DNA of 64,000 nt from Microbacterium sp. (lineage in GTDB: Bacteria > Actinomycetota > Actinomycetes > Actinomycetales > Microbacteriaceae), in NCBI GenBank assembly GCA_002703245.1, contig NZTV01000083.1, forward strand, positions 1 through 64,000, read 5' to 3'. Position numbers and translations under genes: made by a program. This document shows positions 33,071-51,091 of the stretch, piece by piece; within the stretch, counting starts at the first letter, position 1, and each line of letters opens with the position of its first letter. Under the pieces are notes generated by a model. That model ran no database searches. It saw nothing but the letters and a program-made list of their open reading frames with translations, and was not told the origin of the DNA.

Positions 33071-33101
33071 GCCTGAAGCGACGCCCCGGAGGGTAGGGGC
33101 A

Positions 33102-33159
33102 TTCCCCACGGCGATACGGGAATCCTCCAATGGTCGGGCCCCGCGTCCGACGCTTGACT
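33102..33159 (+). promoter_or_regulatory. Shared-motif promoter A (RpiB-transketolase operon)
   Basis: Left arm TTCCCCAC, right arm GGGAATCCTCC, then AT at 33130 and, after 22 bases, the hexamer TTGACT at 33154-33159 in the -10 position. It is the weakest of the five related promoters, its left arm being shifted one base. Transcription would start near 33166, 40 bases before the RpiB-like gene. Confidence 0.7.
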
Positions 33160-33205
33160 GAGGGGACCACAACGGGTCGCGATGAGGCGACAGAGAGGGA
33201 GCCCC

Positions 33206-33664
33206 ATGCCTGGCACGATGCGCATCGCCTTCGGTTCGGATCCGAACGCGACAGACCTCAAGGAAGCCCTCATGGCCGTCGCCGAGGCACGCGGCCACAC
33301 CGCCGCCGACCTCGGCGCCACGGACCCCGTCTACGCACACGTCGCCACCGACGTCGCCACCGCTGTCGCCGCGGGCGACTACGACCGCGGCGTACTTCTG
33401 TGCGGAACCGGTATCGGCGTCTCGATCGCGGCCAACAAGGTACCCGGTGCCTACTGTGCGCTCGTTTCGGACGTGTACTCCGCGGAACGCGCCCAGCTCA
33501 GCAACAACGCGAACCTGATCTCCATGGGCGCGCAGACGTTGGGTGTGGAAGTCGCGAAGGCCCTCTTGGCGCGGTACCTCGAGTGCGACTTCGATCCCGA
33601 GAGTCGGAGCGGTCCGAAGGTCGCGGCCATCACGGCGTTCGAACGACGGTCGGCATCGGCGTGA
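33206..33664 (+). CDS. RpiB/LacAB-family sugar-phosphate isomerase
   Basis: 152 residues from ATG 33206 with AGAGAGGGAG upstream. FGSDPNATDLKEAL is the substrate-binding N-terminus, LCGTGIGVSIAANKVPG the RpiB signature with the usual catalytic Cys, and SNNANLISMGAQTLG the following loop. Family members interconvert aldose and ketose phosphates (ribose-5-P, galactose-6-P, and in tetritol pathways erythrulose-4-P and erythrose-4-P). The neighbouring kinase and TIM-like isomerase make the tetrose role attractive but unproven. The stop overlaps the transketolase start (GTGA). Confidence 0.9.
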   Translation: MPGTMRIAFGSDPNATDLKEALMAVAEARGHTAADLGATDPVYAHVATDVATAVAAGDYDRGVLLCGTGIGVSIAANKVPGAYCALVSDVYSAERAQLSNNANLISMGAQTLGVEVAKALLARYLECDFDPESRSGPKVAAITAFERRSASA

Positions 33665-34530
33665 ACACGATCGACGTGACCGCCGCGGAGGACATCGAGC
33701 TGAGGATCCTTGCGACGCGCGCGCGTCGGAACGTGCTGCGGATGCTCGATGCCGGCGGCTCCGGACATCTCGGCGGCGCATACTCGTGCATCGACATCGT
33801 CACGGCGCTGTATGCGAGGGTGCTTCGTCATGACCCGGCCAATCCGGGGTGGACCGGTCGGGATCGTTTCCTCCTGTCGGCCGGTCACAAGGCGCTCGCC
33901 CAGTACGCTGTCCTGGCCCTGTTCGACTACTTCCCGGCAGAGGTGCTCGATACCTACGGGGCGTTCGGCACGGTCTTGCCGGGCCATCCCGACATGAAGA
34001 AGCTGCCGGGGGTCGAAGCGAACACCGGGGCGCTCGGACACGGCACGGCCATCGCCGCGGGGATGGCGATGGCGGCCCGGACATCGGTCGAGTCCTGGCG
34101 CACATTCGTGCTGCTCGGCGACGGCGAGCTGGCCGAAGGGTCGAACTGGGAAGCCTTCGCGATGGCCGCGCATCATCGGCTCGGCAACCTCACGGCGATC
34201 ATCGACGTCAACGGACTCCAGATCAGCGGAGAGGCCGAACAGATCATGGGGATGGAACCCATCGCCGAGAAGATGCGGGCATTCGGGTGGGTGGTGCAGG
34301 AGATCGACGGCCACGACTATCGACAGATCCTCGACGCGCTCGGTCGCGCCCGTGTCGACACCTCCGCCCCGACGGCCATCGTCGCGCACACCGTCAAAGG
34401 TGAGGGCCTGGGCCGGCTGGCGGGCACGGTGGGCTCGCACTATTGGACCCCGAGCCGGGAGGAGCTGGGGGAGGCGTTCATCGAACTCGACCGACGCCTC
34501 GTCTCGCTCGGACGTGAGCGTGTCGCATGA
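33661..34530 (+). CDS. Transketolase, N-terminal (TPP-binding) subunit
   Basis: 289 residues from GTG 33661, overlapping the RpiB-like gene by four bases. SGHLGGAYSCIDIVTALY, RDRFLLSAGHKALAQYA and LLGDGELAEGSNWEAFAMA (the TPP/Mg site GDGEL to N) match the first half of transketolase. Activity needs the second subunit, encoded by the next gene. Split transketolases of this kind are found in housekeeping archaeal/firmicute forms and in dedicated sugar-catabolic clusters, such as that for apulose phosphate. Confidence 0.92.
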   Translation: MNTIDVTAAEDIELRILATRARRNVLRMLDAGGSGHLGGAYSCIDIVTALYARVLRHDPANPGWTGRDRFLLSAGHKALAQYAVLALFDYFPAEVLDTYGAFGTVLPGHPDMKKLPGVEANTGALGHGTAIAAGMAMAARTSVESWRTFVLLGDGELAEGSNWEAFAMAAHHRLGNLTAIIDVNGLQISGEAEQIMGMEPIAEKMRAFGWVVQEIDGHDYRQILDALGRARVDTSAPTAIVAHTVKGEGLGRLAGTVGSHYWTPSREELGEAFIELDRRLVSLGRERVA

Positions 34531-35480
34531 CCGGCCGTGACCCGCGCAAGGCCTTCGGAGCCGCCGTCCATCGCGTCGCCCGGGAGAACGACGATGTCGT
34601 GGCGATCTCGGTCGACTCCGGTCTGAGCTCCGGGTTGGGGGGCATGAAGGACGAGTTCCCCGAACGGTACATCGAAGTCGGAATCATGGAGCAGGCCGCG
34701 ACGGGCCTCGCGGCCGGCCTCGCCACAGCCGGCAGGATTCCGGTTCTCTGCGCGATCGCACCGTTCGTCACCGCGCGGAACTTCGAGATGTTCCGGAACG
34801 ACGTCGGATACATGCGTCAGAACGTGAAGATCGTCGGCCGCAACGCGGGACTGAGCTATTCGCCGCTCGGACCGACCCACCACTCCCTGGAGGACTGCGC
34901 GCTCGCGCGCCTGATCCCTGGGATCGCGGTCATCACTCCCGCCGATTGCGGGGAGATCGAGGATGCCGTCGCGGCGATGATCGCTCACGAAGGCCCGGTC
35001 TATCTGCGGTTGGGTGCCGGGACCGTCCCCGATCTCTACGAGACGGGCAGCTTCCGGTGGGGGCGGGGGCGGACGCTCTCGCGGGGGGACGACCTCACCG
35101 TGATCAGTTCCGGGCACATCACCGCCGAGGTGATCGACGCCGTCCTCGCCTTGCAGAAGCAGGGCATCGACGTGGAGCACCTCGCACTGTCCATGGTGGA
35201 ACCTCTCGACCATGACCTCGTCGTCGAGGCGGCGCGCCGCACCCGACGGGTCGTAACCGTCGAGGAGCACTATGTGCGTGGGGGGTTGGGTGGCGCGGTC
35301 GCCGAACTGCTCGCGGAACGGTGTCCCGTGCCGCTGCAGGTCATGGGCGCACCGCACCGTTTCATCTCGAGCGGTCCGTACCGCGACGTCATCGAGGGGT
35401 GTGGCCTGGATGCGCAGTCGATCGCCGACCGCGCGGCGGAGTTCGTCCGGGCGACCGCGCCGGTCACGACACACGGATGA
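34527..35480 (+). CDS. Transketolase, C-terminal subunit
   Basis: 317 residues, starting with an ATGA overlap. It has the pyrimidine-binding domain (VGIMEQAATGLAAGLATAG, with the glutamate that activates TPP), LSYSPLGPTHHSLEDCALAR and the C-terminal domain. Together with the preceding subunit it completes a transketolase moving two-carbon units between sugar phosphates. Its 3' end overlaps the convergent oxidoreductase gene by 17 bases. Confidence 0.92.
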   Translation: MTGRDPRKAFGAAVHRVARENDDVVAISVDSGLSSGLGGMKDEFPERYIEVGIMEQAATGLAAGLATAGRIPVLCAIAPFVTARNFEMFRNDVGYMRQNVKIVGRNAGLSYSPLGPTHHSLEDCALARLIPGIAVITPADCGEIEDAVAAMIAHEGPVYLRLGAGTVPDLYETGSFRWGRGRTLSRGDDLTVISSGHITAEVIDAVLALQKQGIDVEHLALSMVEPLDHDLVVEAARRTRRVVTVEEHYVRGGLGGAVAELLAERCPVPLQVMGAPHRFISSGPYRDVIEGCGLDAQSIADRAAEFVRATAPVTTHG

Positions 35481-36447
35481 CGGTCTTCCCGATCCCGTGG
35501 CCGGCGCCGACTCGGGTCAGTGCGGCCGCGAGGGTTTCCGCCGACAGGCGCGGATAGACCTGTCGGGTGGGTGAACGCAGCGCACCGGTGTCCGCGAGTG
35601 CGGCCACTCTCGCGAGGATCTCGGCGTGCGGCGTGCCGGGGCCGGCCCACTCCGGGACCGCCTTGATGAACATGAAGACCCAATGCCACGTCCCGCTCAA
35701 GGGTTTCAGGGGCGTCACGTCGATCGGGCCCCGGTCGACGCCGACGACGTGGCCGAACGGCGCGAGGCACGCGGCGAGGTCGTCGATGCGTCCGCGGGAG
35801 GCCGTCGAGATGACAGCGTCCACCCCTCCCGGGGCGATGCGGCGAACCTGCGGGGCCAGCGCAGACGCATGGTCGACGATGTCGTGTGCGCCGAAGCGTC
35901 TGGCCCAGGCGGACGACTCGGGTCGTGCGGCGGTCGCGATCATCCGCACGTGGGGGAGTGTCGCGCGCGCGAGCTGGATCACAGCCGTGCCGACGCCTCC
36001 CGCGCCGCCGACCATCAGCAGTGTGGCGCGCGTGGATGATCCCCACCGGAGCTGGTCGTGCAGTGCTTCCCATGCCGTGATCATCGTCAAAGGCAGCCCC
36101 GCGGTGTCGACGGCCGACCACTCTCGGGGTGCGCGCGCGCAAAGGCGCTCATCGACGAGGTGGTGAGGTTGAGCGGCGCCGTCACGGTCGAGGGTGCCGG
36201 CATAGAACACGCGTTCACCGAGATCGAAGGCACCCGCGTGCGGACCCCGGCCGATGACCTCCCCGGTCGCATCGAACCCGGGTACCACGCCGGCCGGTTC
36301 CGCCGCTGCGCGCTTGAGATCGACAGGATTGACGCCCATCGCATCGACCCGCACCACGAGATCGTGCCCGGTGGGCACCGGAACGGGACGTTCACGAGGA
36401 ACGACCGTCAGGTGCCCGCCGGGCACGATTCGCGCGATCAGCGCCAT
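35464..36447 (-). CDS. Quinone-oxidoreductase-like MDR protein
   Basis: 327 residues of the medium-chain dehydrogenase/reductase superfamily without the zinc cysteines. VDAMGVNPVDLKRAAA and the NADPH motif VGGAGGVGTAVIQLAR fit the QOR branch. The end of the chain (VYPRLSAETLAAALTRVGAG) is the usual C-terminal helix. It is the last gene of the aldolase-to-QOR operon. It probably reduces an activated carbonyl or quinone with NADPH; whether it is a pathway step or a detoxifier is open. Confidence 0.87.
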   Translation of the reverse strand: MALIARIVPGGHLTVVPRERPVPVPTGHDLVVRVDAMGVNPVDLKRAAAEPAGVVPGFDATGEVIGRGPHAGAFDLGERVFYAGTLDRDGAAQPHHLVDERLCARAPREWSAVDTAGLPLTMITAWEALHDQLRWGSSTRATLLMVGGAGGVGTAVIQLARATLPHVRMIATAARPESSAWARRFGAHDIVDHASALAPQVRRIAPGGVDAVISTASRGRIDDLAACLAPFGHVVGVDRGPIDVTPLKPLSGTWHWVFMFIKAVPEWAGPGTPHAEILARVAALADTGALRSPTRQVYPRLSAETLAAALTRVGAGHGIGKTVIRVS

Positions 36448-36486
36448 GCCGACGCTCTCACGCGTCGAATGGTTCGGGCAGGCGGA

Positions 36487-37041
36487 TCACTGCTTGGTCT
36501 CGTCGACCTTCGCCGGGTGGAACAGTCGTGTCGTCCCGGCCGCCTTCGCCTCATCGTCCACGACGGTGCCGTTCGGCGCCGAGACCACCTCGAGTTGCAT
36601 CCCCCACGGGGCCATGAAGTAGCACCAGGTCAGGCCCAGGTTGGGACCCTCGGTGTAGCTGGTCGGTTCCCCGAGGACTTCGACACCCTGCTCGCGCAGG
36701 TAGGCGATCGCCTCGTCGATGTCGTCGACATAGAAGGCGAGGTGGTGTCCGCCGATGTCGCTGTTCTTCGGCGGTGTCGCGGCCTGGTCCGGCGCGTCGT
36801 ACTGGAAGATCTCCAGGTTGCTGCCGTTGCCGAGGCGCAGATAGCGGAACTCCTTGATGACCGAACGCGGATGCACCCGCAGGTGCTCGGTCATCCAATC
36901 GGTGTCGTCGTTTCGGAAGTCGGTGGCGGCGACGAACAGCTCTTCTGCGCCGAGCACGTTGATGAAGAAGTCGCACGCTTCATCGATGTCGGGAACGGTG
37001 AAGCCGATGTGCTCCATTCCGCGGATTCCGGGGATTGCCAT
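36487..37041 (-). CDS. VOC-family (glyoxalase-like) protein
   Basis: 184 residues with AAGGAGG upstream of ATG 37041. Two betaalphabetabetabeta modules are visible: MEHIGFTVPDIDEACDFFIN and GGHHLAFYVDDIDEAIAYLR. Potential metal ligands are His in MEHIGF, Glu in NLEIFQYD, His in HHLAF and Glu in QLEVVSAP. The family includes glyoxalases, dioxygenases and epimerases. Being 40 bases from the QOR gene and 28 from the kinase, it is part of the pathway operon, maybe as an epimerase or isomerase. Confidence 0.88.
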   Translation of the reverse strand: MAIPGIRGMEHIGFTVPDIDEACDFFINVLGAEELFVAATDFRNDDTDWMTEHLRVHPRSVIKEFRYLRLGNGSNLEIFQYDAPDQAATPPKNSDIGGHHLAFYVDDIDEAIAYLREQGVEVLGEPTSYTEGPNLGLTWCYFMAPWGMQLEVVSAPNGTVVDDEAKAAGTTRLFHPAKVDETKQ

Positions 37042-37068
37042 GGTGTCTTCCTCCTTGCGAGCGAAAGC

Positions 37069-38802
37069 TCAGACGGTCTGTTCGGTACGGGATGCCTGCA
37101 CGACGCCGGCCATGGTCTTCGCCGCCAAGGCGAAGGACACGGCGCCGGGGTCGGGGTGGCCGACGGAGCGATCCGACAGCACCCGTGCGCGACCGAGGCG
37201 CGGCGACAGGTCAGCCGTGGCGGTGGCGGCGGCTTCCGCGACGTCGGCCGCCGTCTTCCATGCCTCGGCGGTGGATGCGCCGTCGGCGACGGCCGCGGCG
37301 AACGCGTCGGCGAACGGGACCATCGCGTCGAGCATCGTCTTGTCTCCGACGCTTCCGCCGCCGAGGCGCGCGATCGCCTCCACGAGCGCCGCGAGAGCCT
37401 GGGCCTGACGGTCGCGGTCGACCGGTGCGGTGTCGCCGAGCACATTGCCGGCCGCGGTGAGTGCGGCACCCCACAGTGCGCCGGACGCGCCGCCGGCGTT
37501 CTCCGACCAGCGGTCGCCGGCGCCGACCAGCACGGTCTGGGCCCCCGCTCCCTGCTCGAAGAGTTCGCGCGCGGCTTTGGCGGCCGCAGCGGAACCGCGC
37601 GTCATGCCGATGCCGTGGTCGCCGTCGCCGGCGATCGCGTCGAGATCACCCAGAGCGGTCGCGTTCGCTTCGATCGCTTCACTGATCAGGGTCAGCCCCT
37701 CGGTGACGATCCCCGCCGTCACGCGTGACTTCTCGCTCGCGACACGGGTGACGACCAGCTGCTCCGCCTCGGTGTTGAACACCACATCGCTCGGGAGCGG
37801 CTCGGCCATCGGTGTACGTCGCTTGTACGCGGGTGTGTCGCACTCGGCGAAGTAGTAGGGCTCCAGCGTCTCATCGAGCCAGACCAGCGTGAGCGAGACC
37901 CCACCCATGTCCAGGGAGGTCATGAACTCGCCCACTTCGCCTTCGGCGATGTCGACACCGGCATCGCGCAGTCGGTTCGCGACGGCGGTGTAGGTGACGA
38001 ACAGCTCCTCGTACTTCGCCGAGCCGAGCCCGTTGAGCATCGCGATCACGCGGGAGCCGTCGGCGGGGCGTTCCTCGAGGAGCCGATCGACCAGGAGCGC
38101 CGCGACATCGTCCGCCGTGCCGAGCTCGGTCTCGTAGATGCCCGGCTCGCCGTGCACGCCCAAGCCCACGCCGATGTGGCCCTTCGGCACCTCGAACAGA
38201 GGGTGGTCCGCGCCCGGCAGGGTGCATCCCGAGAAGGCGACGCCGAAGGTCATCACGCGGTTGTTCGCATGATGGAACACCTCGACGACCTCGTCGAGGG
38301 ACAGGCCCGCTTCGGCCGCTGCACTGGTGATCTTGAACACCGGCAGGCCCCCGGCGATCCCGCGGCGCATCTGCGGAGTGGCCGCCGGCGCCGACGCGAC
38401 GTCGTCGGTGACGACCGCGGTCGCGACCTCGACGTCTTCCGCGCGGAGACGTTCGGCCGCCTGGCCGAAGTGGAGGACGTCGCCGGCGTAGTTCAGGTGC
38501 GCGATGAACACGCCCCCGCCTTGATCGGCGGCACGTGCGACGCTGACCGCCTGTGACGCGCTCGGAGACGAGAAGATGTTTCCGGTCACCACGCCGTCCA
38601 GCAGGCCCTGTCCGACCCACCCGGTGAATGCGGGATAGTGACCCGTGCCCCCTCCGGAGATCACGGCGACCTTGCCCGGTCGCGATCGGGTGGCGCGGAC
38701 CACGCCGCCGAAGACCGCGCGCACGTACTGCGGGTTGGCCTCGACGAATCCCTCCGCGAGTTGACGCGGGAAGTCCTTCGGGTCGTTCAGCAGTGTTGTC
38801 AT
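37069..38802 (-). CDS. Fused DhaK-DhaL ketose kinase (dihydroxyacetone/erythrulose kinase family)
   Basis: 577 residues with GAAGGAG before ATG 38802. The DhaK half (1-330) has SGGGTGHYPAFTGWVGQGLL and GVGLGVHGEPGIYE, with the histidine that binds the keto group covalently. The DhaL half (about 375-577) has DAIAGDGDHGIGMTRG (Mg-ATP aspartates) and SENAGGASGALWG. It is the ATP-dependent single-chain form. Relatives phosphorylate dihydroxyacetone or D-/L-erythrulose. With TIM-like and RpiB-like isomerases in the same regulon, erythrulose kinase is a good guess. Confidence 0.92.
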   Translation of the reverse strand: MTTLLNDPKDFPRQLAEGFVEANPQYVRAVFGGVVRATRSRPGKVAVISGGGTGHYPAFTGWVGQGLLDGVVTGNIFSSPSASQAVSVARAADQGGGVFIAHLNYAGDVLHFGQAAERLRAEDVEVATAVVTDDVASAPAATPQMRRGIAGGLPVFKITSAAAEAGLSLDEVVEVFHHANNRVMTFGVAFSGCTLPGADHPLFEVPKGHIGVGLGVHGEPGIYETELGTADDVAALLVDRLLEERPADGSRVIAMLNGLGSAKYEELFVTYTAVANRLRDAGVDIAEGEVGEFMTSLDMGGVSLTLVWLDETLEPYYFAECDTPAYKRRTPMAEPLPSDVVFNTEAEQLVVTRVASEKSRVTAGIVTEGLTLISEAIEANATALGDLDAIAGDGDHGIGMTRGSAAAAKAARELFEQGAGAQTVLVGAGDRWSENAGGASGALWGAALTAAGNVLGDTAPVDRDRQAQALAALVEAIARLGGGSVGDKTMLDAMVPFADAFAAAVADGASTAEAWKTAADVAEAAATATADLSPRLGRARVLSDRSVGHPDPGAVSFALAAKTMAGVVQASRTEQTV

Positions 38803-38870
38803 TGTCGATTCAACTCCTTCGTTGAAAGGTCGGGTGCCGGTGGCTCGAGGGGTGTCGGAGCCGGCGGCGC

Positions 38871-39650
38871 TCAGGGTTGGGTGGGGTGGGTCAATACACG
38901 TTCGAGGGTGTGCAGGTCGACTCGATCACCGTCGAGGACTCCGAAAGGGTCGTCGATCACGTGCGTCGGGGTGCGGTCGGAGCCGAGCGAGTCGACGACG
39001 AGCGACGCGCCGGAGAAGTCGTCGCCCGCGGTGAAACCGCTGATGGTGACGATCGTCCGGAGCCCGGCCGCGCGGGCCGCGCGCAACCCGATGCCGCTGT
39101 CTTCGACGACCACGGCGTCGTCCGGGTCGACGGCGAGTTCGCGCACCGCCAGCTGGTAGATGTCCGGCGCGGGCTTCTTTTTCGGGACGACATCCCCCGC
39201 GAAGACACGGAATCTCCGGGCCATCTCGTCGCCGACGGCGTGTCGGAGCACCGCCTCCACCGAGGGCTGCGCCGACGTCGAGGCGACCGCGAGTTTCCAC
39301 CCCGCCTCATGGGCTTCGCGGACGAGACGTGCGACACCGGGGCGGGCCGGAATGGCACCGCTGTCGATCAGGCGCGTGTACCGTGTGGTCTTCTCGCGAT
39401 GCCAGTCGGCGAGCATCGTCGACTGCGCGGGCTCGTCGGACGGAAGCCCCGCGGCGGCGACGAACTCCGGGGTGAGCACCGACCTCATGCGTTCCTTGCC
39501 GCCGCCGATCTTCACCTTCTCGGCGTACGTGGGGACATCCCACTCCAGGGGGACCCCGAAGTGCGCGAAGGTGGCGTTGAAAGCGGGGAGGTGTCCGTCG
39601 CGTTCGGTGTCGGCGAGGACACCGTCGCAGTCGAAGATGAGGGCGGGCAT
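38871..39650 (-). CDS. HAD-superfamily hydrolase (CbbY/beta-phosphoglucomutase-like)
   Basis: 259 residues from ATG 39650, one base after the aldolase stop. FDCDGVLADTERDGH is HAD motif I with the nucleophilic and acid/base aspartates, AVASTSAQPSV motif II, the lysine lies in PKKKPAPDIY and VVVEDSGIGLRAARAAG is motif IV. The cap fits the CbbY group, which dephosphorylates sugar (bis)phosphates. It may remove side products or carry out a pathway dephosphorylation. Confidence 0.9.
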   Translation of the reverse strand: MPALIFDCDGVLADTERDGHLPAFNATFAHFGVPLEWDVPTYAEKVKIGGGKERMRSVLTPEFVAAAGLPSDEPAQSTMLADWHREKTTRYTRLIDSGAIPARPGVARLVREAHEAGWKLAVASTSAQPSVEAVLRHAVGDEMARRFRVFAGDVVPKKKPAPDIYQLAVRELAVDPDDAVVVEDSGIGLRAARAAGLRTIVTISGFTAGDDFSGASLVVDSLGSDRTPTHVIDDPFGVLDGDRVDLHTLERVLTHPTQP

Positions 39651-39651
39651 C

Positions 39652-40512
39652 TCAGGAGGCCTTCCCGGCGGAGCCGAAGTCCTCGGCCAGGCCGACGACC
39701 AGACCGATGACATCCTCGCGGGTGGCGGAGAACAGCGAGGGGGGATCCCACTTGTCGCGATCACGGGCATCCTCGAGGAAGGCTAGCGACGACTTCATGT
39801 ACGTCTCCTTCAGCGCTGTCGAGATGTTCACCTTGGCGCACCCGCGGGCGATGAGGGCGTGGAACTGTTCCAGACTCAATCCGCTGCCGCCGTGGAGGGC
39901 GATGGGGATGGATCGCGCGGTGACGATGTCCTCGACGCGCTGATAGTCCAACACGGGCGCCGCCTTGTACGAGCCGTGTGCGTTGCCGATCGAGGGCGCG
40001 AACACGTCGACGCCGGATCGGTCGATGAAGTCGAGACAGACCTCCAGCGCCTGCCGCGCCGCCTCCTCGTCGGAGCCGTGTCCGTCTTCGACGCCGGTGA
40101 TCGATTCGATCTCGCCCTCGACATGCGCCCCGTACTCGCGGGCTTCCGCGACCACCTCGATCGTCTGGCGCAGGTTCTCGGCGACCGGCATCTCGGAGGC
40201 GTCGAACAGCACCGAGTTCCAGCCGTTGCGCAGGCATTCCGTGACGACCTCCCGGTCGGGGCAGTGGTCCAGGTGCAGACACACCGGGACCTCGATCCCC
40301 TCGGTCATCGAGCGCCACATCGCCGCGAGCACCGGCGCACCGATGCTGCGCACCGTCTTGACCGATGTCTGCACGATGATGGGCGATCGTGCCTGGACGG
40401 CACCGGCCAGAACGCCCTCCATCGTGAGGTCGTTGAAGATGTTCACCGCCGGTACGCCGTACCGCTCGGTGAATGCCGTTCCGAGGATCTTCTCGAGAGA
40501 AACCACGCCCAT
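39652..40512 (-). CDS. Class II (zinc) ketose-bisphosphate aldolase
   Basis: 286 residues. The FbaA/GatY/KbaY pattern is present: PAVNIFNDLTMEGVLAGA at the start, HLDHCPDREVV with the catalytic Asp and zinc His, EGEIESITGVEDG, IGNAHGSYKAAP with a zinc His and ALHGGSGLS with another. Aldolases of this group cleave fructose- or tagatose-bisphosphate or related sugars to dihydroxyacetone phosphate and an aldehyde. It is the first gene of a five-gene operon (aldolase, HAD, kinase, VOC, QOR) driven by promoter E. Confidence 0.92.
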   Translation of the reverse strand: MGVVSLEKILGTAFTERYGVPAVNIFNDLTMEGVLAGAVQARSPIIVQTSVKTVRSIGAPVLAAMWRSMTEGIEVPVCLHLDHCPDREVVTECLRNGWNSVLFDASEMPVAENLRQTIEVVAEAREYGAHVEGEIESITGVEDGHGSDEEAARQALEVCLDFIDRSGVDVFAPSIGNAHGSYKAAPVLDYQRVEDIVTARSIPIALHGGSGLSLEQFHALIARGCAKVNISTALKETYMKSSLAFLEDARDRDKWDPPSLFSATREDVIGLVVGLAEDFGSAGKAS

Positions 40513-40538
40513 GTATTCGCTCCCATCAGGTTGCTTTC

Positions 40539-40596
40539 ACGCTATTCGGGGCGCGGAAAAGCGGCCATGAGGGGTGTCCCCCCTGGGGAGTAGGGG
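40539..40596 (-). promoter_or_regulatory. Shared-motif promoter E (aldolase-kinase operon)
   Basis: On the minus strand: CCCCTAC at 40596-40590, GGGACACCCC ending the right arm, AT at 40568-40567, 22 bases, then a perfect TAGCGT at 40544-40539. The start of transcription would be near 40532, about 20 bases before the aldolase ATG, with GGGAGCG as ribosome site. A second CCCTAC half-site lies just upstream. Confidence 0.75.
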
Positions 40597-40612
40597 AATC
40601 ACGTAGGGCAGA

Positions 40613-42454
40613 TCAGAAGGCCGGTGCGGTCTCGCCCATGCCGGCGAGCATGGTGCGGTTGTGTGCCCCGCATTTGCGCAGCAGCGAGCCGACGTGCTTC
40701 TCGACCGTCTTGACGGAGATCCCCAGTTCGGTCGCGATCTGCTTGTCGGCCATGCCCTTGGCCACAAGGCCGCGGACCTCGACCTCTCGGGCGGTGAGTC
40801 GCTCGCCCGGAGACGCGGCGGTACCGCCGTTGTCGAGCAGATGCTCGTACAGCCCCGCGTCGATCATCGCGACGCCCTCTCCGGCGGCGACGATACTGCG
40901 GGCGATCGCATCGGGCGAAGAACGCTTGGTGAGGTACCCGCGTACCCCCACGTCACGCGTCAGGCGGATCTGGTCGACGTTGGGCGACTCCATGTACGCG
41001 ACGATCGACGCTCTGCCGTTGACCGCCTTCAGGCGTTCCGCGATCTGCGGCAGTGCGCGCTCATGGGTGTCGAGATCGACGACGACGACGTCGGGCGCCA
41101 CCTGGTCGATGCTCGCCAGCAGGTCATCGGAATCCTGGCCCTCCGTGATGATCTGCATCGAAGGTTCGTGCAACTGCAACACCCGGACCAAGCCGGCCGA
41201 GACCAGAGGCTGGGTGCTGGAGATCAGGACCTTCCACGGTGCCGTCGCCGGCGTCGCATCCGCATCCGGCATCTCCGGGAGGACCACGCGGACCTTCGTG
41301 CCCCACCCCTCGATCGATTCGATGTCGAACTCACCGCCGAGATGGGTCACCCGGGACGAGATGCCGTGCAGCCCGAGGCCGCCCTCCGGGGACCGGGGGC
41401 CGGTGTAGCCGTGGGATGAGGGAACGAAGCCTCTCCCGTCGTCTTCGATGAGGAGGGTCACCGAATGTGAGCTGTAGAGAAGACCGACCCGCACCGTGGC
41501 GGCACGCGCATGGTTGACCACGTTGGTCAGCGCCTCCTGCGCGATCCGCAACAGCTGGTGGGAGACCTCGGATGACACCTCGCGCCGCGTACCCGACACC
41601 GACAGGGCGGTCTGCAGCGGCGCGACCGACGAGACCCAGTCGAGCTCGTCCGACAGCGCCTGCTCCAGGGTTCCGCCCTCGAGGGCGGTCGGACCGATGC
41701 CCGCGGCCGTCCGCCGGGCCTCCATGAGTGCGGCCTCGGCGCGCTCCCGGGCCTCCTCGATGTGCGCCCGAGACGGGTGTGAGGGGGAGAGCAGCTCGGA
41801 GGCGTGGCGGAGTTCGATCACCATCGACCGCAGCGCGTGACCGACCGTGGAGTGCACATCGCGCACGACGCCTTCCCGTTCGTGCGCCACGGCGATCTCC
41901 CGATCGCGTTTGGACAGTCGCGTGTGCATCTCGGCATTGGCCAGCGCGATCGCGGCGTGGCTGGCGAACAGTTCGGCCAGCTCGGCGTCGGTCGTGGTGA
42001 ACAGCCGGTCGGGTTCGTCGCCGAAGATCACGCAACTGCCGATGATGCGATCCCCCCAGCGGATGGGGACGCCGAGGACGGCGCAGCTCCAGCGCGGGTC
42101 CTCGGCGGAGATGTGCCCGGCGGTGATGGCCGAATAGGAGTGCAACACCACGGCGCTGCGTGTGCGGACGATTTCTCCGGTGACGCCCTGATCCAGGGAG
42201 AACGTCTGCCCCTCGGAGCACCCCACCCCCACATCGACGCGTTTGGTGTAGGTGCCCGCGACTTCGTCGACGAGGCTGATCGAACCCGAGTGGCATCCGA
42301 GCAACCGGGTGGCACTTCTCAGAATGCGCTCCAGCAGAGGCTGAAGCTCGAACTGACCCGCCAGCTCAGCAGCTGACTCGGTGATCGCACGAAGGTGCCC
42401 GGAGGGGGTCAAGACCTCGGGGGCGGTCTCTACGTACGCGAATTCCTGTGACAT
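40613..42454 (-). CDS. One-chain sensor kinase and LuxR-type regulator (GAF-HisKA3-HATPase-REC-HTH)
   Basis: 613 residues from ATG 42454, after GAGGAGGA. Residues 25-175 form a GAF domain, about 185-250 a HisKA_3-like segment with His201 (RDVHSTVGHAL), 295-393 an HATPase_c domain (IAQEALTNVVNHA, EDDGRGFV, GGLGLHGISSRV), 405-530 a receiver domain and 552-605 a LuxR helix-turn-helix (LTAREVEVRGLVAKGMADKQ). No membrane segment. The receiver keeps Asp460 and Lys510, but the acidic pair that binds Mg is replaced by Ser412-Ser413, and the residue after His201 is Ser rather than Asp/Glu. It is the likely regulator of the surrounding island. Confidence 0.9.
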   Translation of the reverse strand: MSQEFAYVETAPEVLTPSGHLRAITESAAELAGQFELQPLLERILRSATRLLGCHSGSISLVDEVAGTYTKRVDVGVGCSEGQTFSLDQGVTGEIVRTRSAVVLHSYSAITAGHISAEDPRWSCAVLGVPIRWGDRIIGSCVIFGDEPDRLFTTTDAELAELFASHAAIALANAEMHTRLSKRDREIAVAHEREGVVRDVHSTVGHALRSMVIELRHASELLSPSHPSRAHIEEARERAEAALMEARRTAAGIGPTALEGGTLEQALSDELDWVSSVAPLQTALSVSGTRREVSSEVSHQLLRIAQEALTNVVNHARAATVRVGLLYSSHSVTLLIEDDGRGFVPSSHGYTGPRSPEGGLGLHGISSRVTHLGGEFDIESIEGWGTKVRVVLPEMPDADATPATAPWKVLISSTQPLVSAGLVRVLQLHEPSMQIITEGQDSDDLLASIDQVAPDVVVVDLDTHERALPQIAERLKAVNGRASIVAYMESPNVDQIRLTRDVGVRGYLTKRSSPDAIARSIVAAGEGVAMIDAGLYEHLLDNGGTAASPGERLTAREVEVRGLVAKGMADKQIATELGISVKTVEKHVGSLLRKCGAHNRTMLAGMGETAPAF

Positions 42455-42499
42455 GAGCGGTCCTCCTCGACCGTCATCGGAGTGCGACGACTGGTCGGG

Positions 42500-42505
42500 A
42501 GTGTA
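42500..42505 (-). promoter_or_regulatory. Probable -10 box of the sensor-regulator gene
   Basis: TACACT on the minus strand, 46 bases upstream of ATG 42454, in the divergent region shared with promoter B of the PFK-like gene. Confidence 0.35.
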
Positions 42506-42558
42506 CACCTCGTGCGTCTGCGCGCCACCGGCCGCGGATCGTGGGGGAGGGGGTGTAT

Positions 42559-42616
42559 TCCCTACGCGGCATCGGGGGAATCCCGTATGGGGACGCGCGC
42601 CGCGGGGGACTAACGT
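42559..42616 (+). promoter_or_regulatory. Shared-motif promoter B (PFK-like gene)
   Basis: TCCCTAC at 42559, GGGGAATCCC as right arm, AT at 42587, 22 bases, TAACGT at 42611-42616. The start codon GTG 42623 follows six bases later, so this mRNA is leaderless. It lies between the regulator gene and the PFK-like gene and could serve both directions. Confidence 0.75.
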
Positions 42617-42622
42617 CTTCCC

Positions 42623-43615
42623 GTGGGCACCGCACGACGCCGATTCGGCGTTCTCGCGGGCGGCGATGACTATCCCGGACTCAACGGCGTGATCCGGGCT
42701 GCCGTCCTGCGGGGAGCGCAAGGCCATGAGGCCGACTTCGTGGGTTTCGTGGACGGATGGCGCGGCGTGCTCGACGCGCAGACCATCGAACTCGGGTGGC
42801 GGGCCGTCCGAGGGGCGGCGGCCGCTCCGGGAACCGTCCTCGGCGCCTCACCGCACGACGATGCGGTGGGCTCGCCCGACCTCGACGCCGTCGTCGCGGG
42901 CGTGCGCATGTCGAACCTCGACGGGCTGCTGATGGTGGGCGGGGAGCAGACCATGGCCGTGGCCGAATCGCTCTCGCGCACGGGTGTCTGCGTGCTCGCC
43001 GTGCCGACGTCGGTCGAGAACGCACTCGGATGCACCGAACGGGCGCTCGGGTTCGACACCGTGGTGGGAGTCGGTGCGGAGGCGATGAGCCGACTCCGCG
43101 CCGTCGGAGACGCCCAGCAGCGGTGCGTGGTCGCGGAGGTGATCGGGCGCGACGTCGGGTGGATCGCCCTGCACGCGGGGCTCGCCGCTGCCGCCGACGT
43201 CGTGCTGGTCCCGGAGTGGCCTCAGACGCGAGAGCAGATCCGGGAGCGTCTCCGGGTCACCGCTCGACGAGGCCACCTCGTGGTCGTGGCCGAGGGGTTC
43301 GCGCTGGCCGCCGACGAGGCGGGGGCCGGAGGGGCCGGAACCCGGCTCCGCCAGATCATCGAATCGCACACCGGCGTCGAGCCCCTCGTCAGCGGGCTCG
43401 CTCCGGTGCAGCGCGGGGCCGCGCCCAGTGCGGCGGACCGGGTGCTGGCCGCGCAGCTCGGGTATGCCGCGGCGGATGCGCTCGTGCGTGGTCGGCATGG
43501 CGTGATGGTCACCGTCGCCGACCACGACGTGAGGCTGTCGCCGCTGGGCGAACGCGGGCGATCCCGCACGGTCTCTCGCGAGCAATACCGCCGATTCCAG
43601 TCCCTGCTCGGGTGA
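42623..43615 (+). CDS. ATP-phosphofructokinase-like protein with altered active site
   Basis: 330 residues from GTG 42623. The PFK fold is recognisable in LAGGDDYPGLNGVIRAA, LLMVGGEQTMAVAE, the GFDTVVG segment and EVIGRDVGWIALHAGLAA. The catalytic loop, PKTIDND in typical enzymes, reads PTSVENA (residues 128-134): the Lys is Thr, the catalytic Asp is Glu and the second Asp is Ala. It may use another sugar phosphate or donor, or be a non-catalytic sensor. It is the only gene under promoter B. Confidence 0.8.
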   Translation: MGTARRRFGVLAGGDDYPGLNGVIRAAVLRGAQGHEADFVGFVDGWRGVLDAQTIELGWRAVRGAAAAPGTVLGASPHDDAVGSPDLDAVVAGVRMSNLDGLLMVGGEQTMAVAESLSRTGVCVLAVPTSVENALGCTERALGFDTVVGVGAEAMSRLRAVGDAQQRCVVAEVIGRDVGWIALHAGLAAAADVVLVPEWPQTREQIRERLRVTARRGHLVVVAEGFALAADEAGAGGAGTRLRQIIESHTGVEPLVSGLAPVQRGAAPSAADRVLAAQLGYAAADALVRGRHGVMVTVADHDVRLSPLGERGRSRTVSREQYRRFQSLLG

Positions 43616-43638
43616 CGGGGTGCGCGTCGGTGGGGTCA

Positions 43639-43696
43639 TCCCTACCGCGACGGCGGGAAAGCCCGCATACCGTCGCCGCTGCGCCCTCCCTAGCAT
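43639..43696 (+). promoter_or_regulatory. Shared-motif promoter C (E1-E2 operon)
   Basis: TCCCTAC at 43639, GGGAAAGCCC at 43655-43664, AT at 43667, 22 bases, TAGCAT at 43691-43696. Expected start near 43703, about 50 bases before the E1 gene. Confidence 0.8.
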
Positions 43697-43751
43697 CGGG
43701 ACGAGAGTTGCATCGCCGCGGATGCCGGCTCAGAGATCGAGGATGACCTAG

Positions 43752-45944
43752 ATGACGACGAAGAAGAAGCTTGCCCCCGCTTCCCCGTGGGTGGAACTTC
43801 GCACCACCATGAAGGACTGGGACGCCGCAGACCCGGCGTTGCTGACCACGATGGCCACCCAACTCCACCTGATCCGGGCGTTCGAGGAGAGCGTGCTCGA
43901 TCTGGCGGGGCAGAAGCTCATCAACGGCCCGGCTCACTCCAGCATCGGACAGGAGGGCGGCGCGGTCGGATCGATCCTGCCGTTGACGGTCGCCGACCAG
44001 ATAAACGGCTCGCACCGAGGACACCACCAGTTCCTCGCCAAGGCGCTCACCGCCGTGCAGCCCGACGGGTTCGGCATGACCGGAGACTTCTCGGGTGAGG
44101 TCCGCGAGGTGCTCTCCCGCAGCCTGTCGGAGATCTGCGGCCTGGCCGCCGGGTACTGCGGTGGCCGTGGCGGCTCGATGCACCTGCAGTGGAAGGAGAT
44201 CGGGGCGATGGGCACGAACGCCATCGTCGGCGGTGCGGTCCCGTTCGCGACCGGCTTCGCCTGGTCCGATCGGCATGCGGGCACGGATGCGGTCTCGGTG
44301 ACCTACTTCGGCGACGGAGCGATGAACATCGGATCCGTTCTGGAGAGTCTGAACCTCGCCTCGGCGTGGTCGTTGCCGGTGTGCTTCTTCGTGGAGAACA
44401 ACCAGTACGCGGTCTCGACCACGGTCGAGGAGGCGACGGGAGAACCGCGTCTGTCCGCCCGGGCACTCGGATTCAACATCCCGAGCTGGCGCGTGGACGG
44501 TATGGACCCCCTCGCGGTGCACCTGGCGATGGAGGAGGCGCTCGAGCACATGCGGGCGGGCAAGGGCCCGACCATGATCGAGGCTGACGTCTACCGCTAC
44601 TTCCACCAGAACGGACCTTTCCCGGGCAGTGCGTTCGGCTATCGCGACCGAGACGAAGAGACGGCGTGGCGTGGCCGCGACCCGCTCGAGGCCATCGGCG
44701 GTCACCTGATCCGGCGCGGCATCGTCGGCCCGGACGAGATCGCCGACCTGCGTGCGCGGTGCAAGGCGATCATGTCCTCGGTGTGCGACGAGCTGCTCGA
44801 GCCCGATCCCGACCGCAAGGGCCAGCAGCGCTTCCGGCTGGACCTGTGGCCGGACCCGAGCGCGATCGACGAGGGGATCCGGGGTGACCTGTCCGAGCTC
44901 GACGGCGCGCGCTACCTCGAAGCCGGCGACGTCACCGGCGCCACGACCACCGTGCGTTTCGTCGACGCCGTCGCGGAGGTGATGTCGCGACGCATGGCGC
45001 GGGACGAGCGCATCGTCGTGCTCGGCGAGGACGTGCACAAGCTCAGCGGAGGGCCGCGCGGGGCGACCAAGGGCCTGAAAGAGGCCTATCCCGATCGTGT
45101 GCTGGGAACGCCCATCAGCGAAGCGGCCTTCAGCGGTCTGGCCGGCGGCATGGCCCTGGACGGCCGCTACCGCCCGGTCATCGAGCTCATGTACGCCGAC
45201 TTCGTGTGGGTGGCCGCCGATCAGCTGTTCAATCAGATCGGCAAGGCCCGCCACATGTTCGGCGGCCAGCACAGCATGCCGTTGGTGATGCGCATCAAGG
45301 TGGGTACCCGCACCGGCTACGGGTCCCAGCACTCGATGGACCCCGCCGGAGTCATGGCCTCATCCGCCGGGTGGCGCATCGTGGCCCCGTCGACACCCCA
45401 CGACTACATCGGCGCCATGAATGCGGCGTTGCAGTGTGAGGACCCGGTCGCGGTGCTCGAGCACGATGCGGACCTGTATCGCGCCGAGGGCGCGGTGCCC
45501 GACGGTGACCTGGACTACCTCCTTCCCGTCGGATCTGCCGCCGTGCGCCGGACCGGCGAGGCCGTGACGGTGCTGACCTACCTGTCGATGGTCGCGCCCA
45601 GCGTGGAAGCTGCGGAGCTCAGCGGCGTGGACGCTGAGGTCATCGATCTGCGCTGGCTCGACATGGCCAGTATCGACTGGGACACGATCGAGCGGAGCAT
45701 CACGAAGACCAATCGCGTGATGATCGTCGAGCAGGGATCCCGGCAGACCTCCTACGGGGCGCTCTTGGCCGATGAGATCCAGCGCCGGTACTTCGATTGG
45801 CTGGACGCCCCTGTCGCGCGGGTCTGCGGAAGCGAGTCGTCGCCGAGTATCAGCAAGGTCCTCGAAGAGGCGGCTCTCGCGAACGCGGACGACGTCGCGG
45901 CGGGTCTGACCAGACTCGCCTTCGACACGGAAGGGGCCGACTGA
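43752..45944 (+). CDS. 2-oxoacid/acetoin dehydrogenase E1, alpha and beta fused
   Basis: 730 residues. Residues 1-370 are E1 alpha: IRAFEESVLDLAGQ, SSIGQEGGAVGS, GGRGGSMHLQW and the TPP motif YFGDGAMNIGSVLESLNLA to ENNQYAVSTT. Residues from about 395 are E1 beta: VVLGEDVHKLSGG, GTPISEAAFSGLAGGMALDG and HSMDPAGVMASSAGWRIVAPS. The subunits are usually separate genes; here one chain carries both. Closest in feel to acetoin dehydrogenase AcoA/AcoB-type E1, but the substrate is uncertain. It is coupled by one base to the E2 gene. No E3 gene is in the window. Confidence 0.9.
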   Translation: MTTKKKLAPASPWVELRTTMKDWDAADPALLTTMATQLHLIRAFEESVLDLAGQKLINGPAHSSIGQEGGAVGSILPLTVADQINGSHRGHHQFLAKALTAVQPDGFGMTGDFSGEVREVLSRSLSEICGLAAGYCGGRGGSMHLQWKEIGAMGTNAIVGGAVPFATGFAWSDRHAGTDAVSVTYFGDGAMNIGSVLESLNLASAWSLPVCFFVENNQYAVSTTVEEATGEPRLSARALGFNIPSWRVDGMDPLAVHLAMEEALEHMRAGKGPTMIEADVYRYFHQNGPFPGSAFGYRDRDEETAWRGRDPLEAIGGHLIRRGIVGPDEIADLRARCKAIMSSVCDELLEPDPDRKGQQRFRLDLWPDPSAIDEGIRGDLSELDGARYLEAGDVTGATTTVRFVDAVAEVMSRRMARDERIVVLGEDVHKLSGGPRGATKGLKEAYPDRVLGTPISEAAFSGLAGGMALDGRYRPVIELMYADFVWVAADQLFNQIGKARHMFGGQHSMPLVMRIKVGTRTGYGSQHSMDPAGVMASSAGWRIVAPSTPHDYIGAMNAALQCEDPVAVLEHDADLYRAEGAVPDGDLDYLLPVGSAAVRRTGEAVTVLTYLSMVAPSVEAAELSGVDAEVIDLRWLDMASIDWDTIERSITKTNRVMIVEQGSRQTSYGALLADEIQRRYFDWLDAPVARVCGSESSPSISKVLEEAALANADDVAAGLTRLAFDTEGAD

Positions 45945-47248
45945 TGGCCAGTGCGCTGCGGATGCCCGGTGTCTCGGCCGACTCCGAGGAGGCGGTGCTC
46001 GTCGAATGGTCCGTCTCGACAGGAGCGAGCATCGGTGAAGGCGACGCCGTCGCGGTCGTCGAGACCGAGAAGGCCAATGTCGATATCGTCGCGGACGCCG
46101 CCGGAACCGTATGGCGACTGCTCGCCGAACCCGGCGAATCGGTGGTGGTGGGAAACCCCATCGCCGTCGTCCTGGCCGCCGGGGAGGGTGACGACGCGGG
46201 AGAAGCGCTGCTGACGAGCCTCGGACTGGGTGAGGACGAGAAAACGGCATCCGATCCCGATGCCCCCGACTCCGCACCCGCCCCCGATACCGCACCCGCC
46301 GGCGAGCCGGTCGCGGCCCCGGCGTCGAGCGCTAGCGCGCCGAGCCCCGCGGGAGAAGGGCGACGACTGTTCGCCTCACCCCTGGTGCGCCGGTTGGCCC
46401 ACGAAGCGGGGGTGTCGCTGGAGAGCGTGCCCGGTAGCGGTCCGCACGGTCGTGTCGTCAAACGCGATCTCGAGAAGCTGCTGGCCGCCTCGGCTACTCC
46501 GCTCCCGTCGACGCCACCCCCGGCTGCACCGACCCCGGCGTCGGCAGCCGTGACCGAGGCCGCGCCGGCGGAGGAGGGCGACATCCCCCACACGCGCATG
46601 AGGCGCGCGATCGCGGGAGCGCTGACGGCGAGCAAGCAGCAGTCCCCGCACTTCTATCTGTCCCGAAGCGTTCGGATGGACGCCCTGCTGGATCTGCGCG
46701 CGACCATCAACGCCGCGTCGACCACGCGTGTGTCGGTCAACGACTTCATCGTCAAGGCGATCGCGGATGCGTTCGTGGCGGTCCCCGAGGCCAATGTCAT
46801 GTGGCTTCCCGACGCGGTCAGACCCCTGTCCTCGATCGATGTCTCCGTGGCCATCGGCAGCGAGAAGGGCCTGGTGACCCCCGTCGTCCGGGACGTCGAT
46901 CGGCTACGACTGACCGAGGTCTCCAAACGGGTGCGGGACTATGTCGCACGGGCCGACGAAGGACGCCTCCGACAGGAGGACCTCGAGGGAGGGGCGTTCA
47001 CGGTGTCCAACCTCGGCATGTTCGGTGTCGAGGAGTTCTCCGCGATCATCAACCCGCCGCAGGTGGGCATCCTCGCCGTCGGGGCCGTCGTCGAGACGCC
47101 CGTGGTGGAGCAGGGTCGCATCGTGCCCGCCCGCGTGATGAAGGTGACGGCGTCGTTCGATCATCGTCCGATCGACGGCGTGTTGGGTGCCCGGTGGCTC
47201 GCGGCGTTCGCCGCCGCCCTGGAGAACCCCTACACACTCCTGGCCTGA
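45944..47248 (+). CDS. Dihydrolipoamide acyltransferase E2
   Basis: 434 residues from ATG 45944, overlapping the E1 stop by one base. Residues 1-80 are a lipoyl domain with the lipoylated Lys43 in VVETEKANVDI. A Pro/Ala-rich linker leads to the E1/E3-binding domain (FASPLVRRLAHEAGVSLESV, GPHGRVVKRDL). The catalytic domain (about 215-434) includes FTVSNLGMFGVEEFSAIINP and the active-site His407 in FDHRPIDG. It receives the acyl group from the fused E1 and passes it to CoA. E3 must be supplied from elsewhere. Confidence 0.93.
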   Translation: MASALRMPGVSADSEEAVLVEWSVSTGASIGEGDAVAVVETEKANVDIVADAAGTVWRLLAEPGESVVVGNPIAVVLAAGEGDDAGEALLTSLGLGEDEKTASDPDAPDSAPAPDTAPAGEPVAAPASSASAPSPAGEGRRLFASPLVRRLAHEAGVSLESVPGSGPHGRVVKRDLEKLLAASATPLPSTPPPAAPTPASAAVTEAAPAEEGDIPHTRMRRAIAGALTASKQQSPHFYLSRSVRMDALLDLRATINAASTTRVSVNDFIVKAIADAFVAVPEANVMWLPDAVRPLSSIDVSVAIGSEKGLVTPVVRDVDRLRLTEVSKRVRDYVARADEGRLRQEDLEGGAFTVSNLGMFGVEEFSAIINPPQVGILAVGAVVETPVVEQGRIVPARVMKVTASFDHRPIDGVLGARWLAAFAAALENPYTLLA

Positions 47249-47271
47249 CGCCCTGTCGGCGGGGGGGGGAG

Positions 47272-47329
47272 TCCCTACCCGCCGATAGGGAAAGCCCCAA
47301 TTACGGGGTCGGAGGGCACCTGGAAGCGT
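47272..47329 (+). promoter_or_regulatory. Shared-motif promoter D (ABC importer-TIM operon)
   Basis: TCCCTAC at 47272, GGGAAAGCCC at 47288-47297, AT at 47300, 22 bases, AAGCGT at 47324-47329. It has the clearest two arms of the five. Expected start near 47336, about 40 bases before the binding-protein gene. Confidence 0.8.
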
Positions 47330-48432: not shown

Positions 48433-48438
48433 TCCCTC

Positions 48439-48467
48439 GCGGGCGGCGCACCCCGTGCGCCGCCCGC
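48439..48467 (+). terminator. Hairpin between binding protein and ATPase genes
   Basis: A perfect 13-base-pair stem (GCGGGCGGCGCAC) with a three-base loop begins seven bases after the binding-protein stop, within the operon. As at 4536-4567, it probably tunes the excess of binding protein over membrane parts by partial termination or 3'-end protection. Confidence 0.7.
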
Positions 48468-48492
48468 TCGGAAACCGCACAAAGGAGTCGCG

Positions 48493-51080: not shown

Positions 51081-51091
51081 AGGGCACGCCC

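Follow-up and report, generated by a model that had tools for sequence, protein, structure and literature searches.

The window analysed here is a 64,000-nucleotide stretch of DNA from Microbacterium sp. (contig NZTV01000083.1, positions 1 to 64,000 of the forward strand); its contig is one of 120 in a 3.03-Mb genome judged 84% complete. It holds a gene cluster whose five promoters share a two-part site, and a regulator that is the candidate to bind it. Operon 1 (33182–35480, plus strand) encodes an RpiB-like isomerase and the N and C halves of a transketolase, and operon 2 (35464–40512, minus strand) comprises a class II aldolase, a HAD phosphatase, a DhaK-type kinase, a VOC protein and a zinc-type dehydrogenase (fba-HAD-dhaK-VOC-MDR), with intergenic gaps of −1 to 68 bases; both were assigned with Pfam and NCBIfam. 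The regulator, a one-chain protein of 613 residues characterised by Pfam, by its predicted fold and by its residues in 73 aligned rows, is encoded at 40613–42454 on the minus strand. Divergent from it lies a PFK-like gene with substituted signature residues (42623–43615, plus strand; Pfam and alignment). Two further plus-strand operons follow: operon 4 (43752–47248), encoding a fused E1 alpha-beta protein and the E2 of a 2-oxoacid-dehydrogenase-like complex, and operon 5 (47377–52911), encoding a sugar-type ATP-binding cassette (ABC) importer, with binding protein, ATPase and two permeases, and a TIM-like isomerase.

All five promoters contain two tandem dyads of the form GGG-N4-CCC, 21–22 bases apart from start to start, followed after a further 26 bases by a −10 box. 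At the RpiB-transketolase promoter (33097–33159, plus strand), dyad 1 occupies 33097–33106 (GGGCATTCCC), dyad 2 33118–33127 (GGGAATCCTC) and the −10 box TTGACT 33154–33159. The aldolase operon promoter (40539–40602, minus strand) has dyad 1 at 40593–40602, dyad 2 at 40572–40581 or one base nearer the −10 box, and TAGCGT at 40539–40544; its gap from dyad 2 to the −10 box is 27 bases under one alternative reading. Between the PFK-like gene and the divergent regulator gene, the PFK-like promoter (42553–42616, plus strand) has its dyads at 42553–42562 and 42575–42584 and TAACGT at 42611–42616. The E1-E2 promoter (43633–43696, plus strand) has dyads at 43633–43642 and 43655–43664 and TAGCAT at 43691–43696, and the importer promoter (47266–47329, plus strand) has dyads at 47266–47275 and 47288–47297 and AAGCGT at 47324–47329. 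The inner dyad arms are often extended to CCCTAC and GTAGGG.

An earlier note on this DNA had proposed a common 58-base plan for these promoters, built on the string TCCCTAC-N9-GGGAAAGCCC-N2-AT. The common plan was confirmed in all five, but the shared block measures 63–64 bases rather than 58, because the left element TCCCTAC is the right half of a full GGG-N4-CCC dyad, whereas dyad 2 had been covered in full; there are two dyads, and the spacer between them varies. As a fixed string the motif stands at four sites, with exact copies at 43639 and 47272, two mismatches at 42559 and three at 40596, whereas the copy at 33102, one base shorter in its spacer, is out of register with the string but fits the two-dyad architecture. 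The distance of 22 bases from the AT to the −10 box held at all five promoters. With up to three mismatches allowed, the string has four matches in the window against 0.01 expected from dinucleotide shuffles.

To search with an independent model, we used relatives of the regulator collected from named genomes, which amounted to at least 79 loci. The aldolase gene is present in 68 of the 79 listed loci, nearly always with the HAD and dihydroxyacetone-kinase genes, and dyads are visible in most of those 68 aldolase upstream regions. For the sequence profile, R1, we used 57 aldolase promoters, all from other genomes and none from the window. Its input was 67 aldolase upstream regions, L092 (Ns) having been excluded beforehand; removal of L065, L086, L100 and L107 by hand and of L083, L090 and L112 by score left 60, and further hand exclusion of L101, L110 and L111 left 57. 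Run over the window with filters off, R1 placed the five promoters at ranks 1 to 5, with scores of 31.2 (E1-E2), 23.9 (aldolase), 23.7 (PFK-like), 19.1 (importer) and 17.6 bits (RpiB-transketolase). The runners-up, at 14.6 bits on the opposite strand of the 47272 site and at 13.2 bits, score below all five, in agreement with the earlier note, in which no further copy was noticed in the window.

Over the 3.03-Mb genome the same five promoters again came top among the 150 of 1698 first-look candidates that were scored, a fraction that makes the scan non-exhaustive; the PFK-like promoter ranked third with 21.7 bits. Frequent matches elsewhere in the genome, which the earlier note had named as grounds for refuting its reading, were absent, the best on another contig reaching 15.2 bits. 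The sixth-ranked match (C19, 15.2 bits) was set aside because it lies inside a 472-residue reading frame. Runs of GGG and CCC are common in DNA of 69% GC, and a chance or repeat-derived likeness between GC-rich stretches might have produced such a pattern, as might an RNA element; chance was rejected on the shuffles and on the ranks of the five sites under the independent profile, and the RNA element on an Rfam scan, in which no family reached its gathering score in 32000–53000, with the block, moreover, lying upstream of the −10 box. We assign these explanations a negligible probability.

The geometry of the five promoters recurs in other genomes. When dyads were placed without regard to the −10 box in 64 aldolase promoters (L065, L086, L100 and L092 left out), the pattern TANNNT started 25–27 bases past dyad 2 in 57 and was nearly absent from the rest of the 55 positions covered. 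A match of four in six to the −35 hexamer at the right distance occurred in 1 of 58 promoters, against 8% of random positions. Among 80 aldolase and PFK upstream regions, 73 exceeded the 95th percentile of dinucleotide shuffles under a scoring that includes the −10 box, and 59 of these had 26 or 27 bases between dyad 2 and the −10 box. In two genomes (G094 and G367) the inner arms make up a perfect inverted repeat, ATTCCCCTACC...GGTAGGGGAAT; in Jiangella-like genomes the dyad arms differ, and G154 retains the 22 bases to TAGCGT, counted by eye. If transcription starts seven bases after the −10 box, the dyads would be centred near −65 and −43. At two loci with an aldolase only 45–46% identical, operator matches were seen directly after the regulator gene (L086, 11780–11839; L100, 3519–3573).

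A fixed distance to the −10 box would also be displayed by a pair of elements recognised by an alternative sigma factor, with dyad 2 serving as an extended −35 element. The 26 bases between the end of dyad 2 and the −10 box, however, are too many for a −35 element, and another conserved dyad is found beyond dyad 2 on the upstream side; we rejected this reading on promoter geometry and regard it as very improbable. The same layout bears on whether the bound protein activates or represses. Some NarL-family proteins also repress, and position alone cannot establish activation, so that a dyad-bound regulator might instead block polymerase until a ligand releases it. Against such a repressor stands the location of both dyads upstream of the −10 box, with dyad 2 at a fixed 26 bp ± 1 and no −35 element, as expected for an activator-dependent promoter, and we consider repression improbable.

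Conservation, the lack of which would by the earlier note have refuted its reading, extends to orthologous clusters. In Cryobacterium sp. Y11 (L040), genes for the importer, E1-E2, PFK, regulator, aldolase, HAD protein, kinase and VOC protein occur together; the aldolase, E1 and importer promoters follow the two-dyad plan, and the PFK promoter has dyads without a clear −10 box. R1 scored the aldolase promoter, a training site, at 28.4 bits, E1 at 14.4 and PFK at 13.3. A genome of the same family as the window (G582) carries the regulator, aldolase, HAD, kinase, VOC, E1-E2, importer, RpiB-like and TIM-like genes, and its aldolase, E1 and importer promoters likewise follow the plan, with R1 scores of 32.9 bits for aldolase and 21.0 for importer. 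The importer operators of the window, L040 and G582 are far more alike than their spacers to the −10 box. R1 also found the PFK promoter in 10 of the 13 loci with a PFK gene (seven at 16.9–23.2 bits, three at 12.7–13.3), and no PFK promoter had been used in building it. A search of the family for the fused E1 returned mostly a more distant relative, and among the seven places fetched the whole cluster was present only in G582. Five genomes (G700, G419, G559, G760 and G717) contain a related aldolase-HAD-E1-E2 cluster, with aldolases 46–48% identical, and in these we found neither a full regulator relative (G419 has one partial match, 33%) nor an R1 match; G585, with E1-E2 only, likewise gave no R1 match.

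The regulator gene is a single open frame comprising, by Pfam, GAF, HisKA_3, HATPase_c, an atypical receiver and a LuxR-type (GerE) helix-turn-helix (HTH). The earlier note had named a LuxR-type regulator at 40613 as the obvious binder; the protein is tied to the site by joint presence and absence, as set out below, but it is a one-chain protein rather than a simple LuxR regulator. Near-full-length matches to a one-chain regulator occur in its relatives, the kinase and response regulator not being separate proteins. The predicted fold agrees with the domain order (mean predicted local distance difference test, pLDDT, 76.5; predicted template modelling score, pTM, 0.37), although the placement of the domains relative to one another is unreliable at that pTM. 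The C-terminal HTH matches PF00196 with 54.3 bits against a cut-off of 23.5, and for the receiver-HTH half the nearest Protein Data Bank entries are VraR, NarL and DevR. The receiver match, at 25.4 bits, falls under its cut-off of 30.2: the window protein has ST at the position of the acidic pair, with the Asp and Lys present. Across the 73 aligned rows, which are frames of over 500 residues with some genes counted twice (two Jiangella loci also entered as G041 and G235), the acidic pair DD of the receiver is conserved in 10, its phospho-acceptor Asp in 51 and its Lys in 3. The kinase retains its phospho-acceptor His in 71 rows and the N-box Asn in all 73, and the string ISVKTVEKHVG is identical in 48.

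Shorter forms of the regulator were found in intact frames. The form seen in Cryobacterium gelidum and C. ruanii (L114, L117 and L160) consists of GAF, receiver and HTH without the kinase; its receiver scores above the Pfam cut-off, and the loci have two dyads. The frame of G336/L114 is intact although it lacks the kinase. Two further loci (L109 and L110) encode GAF and HTH with neither kinase nor receiver, a form represented by Marisediminicola senii, and this form has matches (E ≤ 1e-30) in 29 of 398 genomes of the family: seven frames of 254–327 residues, that of G336 with 452, and 21 of at least 606. All seven short frames, and that of L109, lie directly before the aldolase gene, and in eight of the eight GAF-HTH loci compared dyad 2 is followed 26–27 bases later by TANNNT.

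Dyad 1 scores lower at the eight short-form promoters than at 75 full-form promoters (median 5.75 against 7.8, Mann-Whitney p = 2e-4), and also than at 15 full-form promoters of the same family (p = 1e-3); a count above a cut-off fails to separate the groups (6 of 8 against 71 of 75, p = 0.10). This suggests that dyad 1 is weaker beside the GAF-HTH forms, the compared rows being related to one another. The comparison covered loci with an aldolase gene, leaving out L242, L249, L250 and L264, whose short loci hold none. At L245, L258 and L111 no dyad 2 with a −10 box was found, and at L263 the scoring misplaced the dyads. In L190 and L191, transketolase halves and a HAD gene were seen close to a GAF histidine kinase that is related to the regulator. 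L190 also has a DhaK-type kinase gene, and in L191 the receiver-HTH match falls on a stretch of its own, so that the system may exist there in a two-protein form.

Regulator and operator go together across genomes. A regulator relative (E ≤ 1e-60) is present in 11 of 394 genomes of the class, each of which carries the HAD gene of the cassette as well. R1 (E ≤ 0.001) matched 21 genomes, comprising 9 of the 11 with the regulator and 12 of the 383 others (Fisher p = 3e-11), and one of those 12, G336, carries the cassette together with its kinase-less regulator relative. Conversely, no regulator relative accompanies the aldolase-HAD-kinase cassettes of G360 (aldolase 55% identical) and G378 (73%), and no operator was found upstream of their aldolase genes. 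Two full-length regulator relatives (L242 and L264) lie in short fetched stretches that contain no aldolase gene, and no clear operator was found within 150 bases after either regulator gene. Arthrobacter-like regulator genes also occur on contigs titled Vibrio cholerae strain 35D (L065 and L098), the former with PFK and aldolase genes as well; that assembly is probably mislabelled or contaminated.

From these sequence comparisons we conclude that the five sites are very probably the operators of one small regulon, bound and activated by the 40613 protein. The two-part site is conserved in many related soil bacteria beside the same type of regulator. In the mechanism we propose, the protein would bind each site as two dimers on tandem dyads about two helical turns apart, and the promoter, with a −10 box but no −35 element, would be activated by the bound regulator. 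The proximal dimer, at about −43, may touch RNA polymerase as NarL does, with the distal dimer, at about −65, stabilising it. The GAF domain would sense a small molecule, probably the sugar or a pathway intermediate, and thereby switch the chain on. Since the smallest forms consist of GAF and HTH only, a ligand signal passing from GAF to HTH may represent the minimal path, with the phosphorelay probably not essential; the data point to NarL-like, ligand-driven activation that may not need it.

Several observations weigh against this assignment. Two of the −10 boxes, TTGACT at 33102 and AAGCGT at 47272, are weak, and dyad spacing varies from 20 to 25 bases among the 73 regions that exceeded the shuffles. 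Among 22 loci held out of R1 (the ten exclusions, L092 and eleven more), R1 matched 10; the 12 without a match include four distant relatives (28–32%) and several partial copies, and four misses (L101, L077, L089 and L099) have no simple explanation. The importer promoter of L040 gave no R1 match at E ≤ 0.05, nor the E1 promoter of G582 at E ≤ 0.2, and both were recognised by the dyad plan. In the large class-wide scan, which used stricter filters, 2 of the 11 regulator-bearing genomes gave no R1 match (E ≤ 0.001). Lastly, R1 alone is not fully specific, because 11 of the matching genomes showed no cassette near the site by tblastn; reading frames were inspected for seven of them, and within the fetched stretches a partial match to the receiver-HTH part (33%) was seen in G332 and a relative of PFK (40%) in G289.

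Those 11 genomes, which carry similar sites elsewhere without a regulator relative, would also fit a different division of labour, in which the operators are real and conserved but another NarL-type regulator binds them, the 40613 gene being a passenger or acting through that protein. The degenerate receiver of the 40613 regulator is consistent with such an arrangement, and binding by this protein is deduced from sequence. The distribution of R1 matches between regulator-bearing and other genomes speaks against it, however, as do the HAD gene in every regulator-bearing genome and the cassettes of G360 and G378, which lack regulator and site alike. Even the shortest regulators, moreover, keep GAF and HTH and precede the aldolase gene with dyad 2, and ISVKTVEKHVG is preserved exactly in roughly two-thirds of the aligned rows. 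We judge a different binder unlikely, and favour direct binding by the 40613 protein. Separately, in three genomes without a 40613-type regulator (L167, L168 and L170) a single similar dyad, GGTAGGGAAAACCCCAAT then CCTAGCGTG, precedes a gene; in L167, the one inspected, that gene is the first of an apparent biosynthetic cluster.

The closest worked-out case that we found is that of the NarL-activated ogt and yeaR promoters of E. coli, which have in common with the window a NarL/FixJ-type DNA-binding domain and tandem dyads upstream of the −10 box (PMC7419079). At ogt, two tandem sites, −44.5 and −77.5, serve NarL for activation, a site at −67.5 alone is also active, and NarL contacts the C-terminal domain of the polymerase alpha subunit (PMC7419079). 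The proximal site near −44 resembles the window dyad at about −43, whereas the dyads here are 20–25 bases apart against 33 at ogt. The ogt-like layout is found here: the dyads stand in tandem, the proximal dyad immediately precedes the −35 region and keeps a fixed distance to the −10 box, and no −35 element is needed. The window dyads are GGG-N4-CCC, in contrast to the 7-2-7 sites of the NarL consensus, and unlike NarL the window regulator combines a kinase with an atypical receiver in a single polypeptide.

Among the best solved-structure sequence matches of the receiver-HTH and kinase halves are VraR, DevR/DosR and DesR and the kinases VraS, DevS and DesK. In VraS/VraR, DevS/DevR and DesK/DesR, kinase and response regulator are separate proteins, as opposed to the one polypeptide in the window. 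MadSR and MctSR provide the best NCBIfam matches of the kinase part (MadS 94.3 bits, MctS 87.4), scores far under the curated cut-offs of 500 and 700 bits that place the protein outside these families. The hybrid two-component regulators of Bacteroides similarly have a sensor, a kinase, a receiver and a DNA-binding domain within a single protein and control sugar genes, but are membrane proteins with AraC-type DNA-binding domains. A literature search with narrow terms on the regulator, operator, cassette or pathway returned no description that we recognised, and the regulatory circuit seems not to have been described previously.

The comparisons support NarL-like activation by an unusual one-chain regulator that is present in several actinobacterial families. 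We speculate further, with confidence a little short of even, that an undescribed class of actinobacterial regulators arose when a whole two-component system was fused into a single cytoplasmic chain that later gave up its phosphorelay, regulator and operator shrinking together and all members preceding the same aldolase gene and operator. The receiver would have decayed in most members, the kinase been lost in some, and both kinase and receiver in others. Full forms would then act as one-component activators driven by a ligand, with the kinase fold used for assembling dimers or tetramers on the tandem dyads, and the window regulator would have gained four promoters beyond that of the aldolase operon. 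The domain-loss series offers a way to ask how a kinase-bearing chain works without a phosphorelay. More broadly, the window presents a compact regulon of five promoters, one likely activator and a defined operator, with natural controls in genomes that lack regulator and site and in regulators that have lost domains, and it would assign a regulator and operator to the aldolase-phosphatase-dihydroxyacetone-kinase module of several actinobacterial families.

Within the cluster itself, we looked for the D-erythrulose-4-phosphate isomerase, tetrulose kinase and isomerase expected of a tetrulose or tetritol pathway: the kinase and TIM-like proteins match only general families, and the RpiB-like protein scores 150 bits with its best family, NF051858, below the cut-off of 240. 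RpiB-like, TIM-like and DhaK-type proteins might suit a four-carbon ketose, as in the tetritol pathways of mycobacteria. The PFK-like gene has a GTG start at 42623, the seventh base past its −10 box, and its mRNA may therefore be leaderless. In the encoded protein, SGGDCPGLN is replaced by GGDDYPGLN and KT-V/I-DND by TSVENA, residues that are constant in all 14 aligned relatives; lacking them, the protein may be inactive or have a new role.

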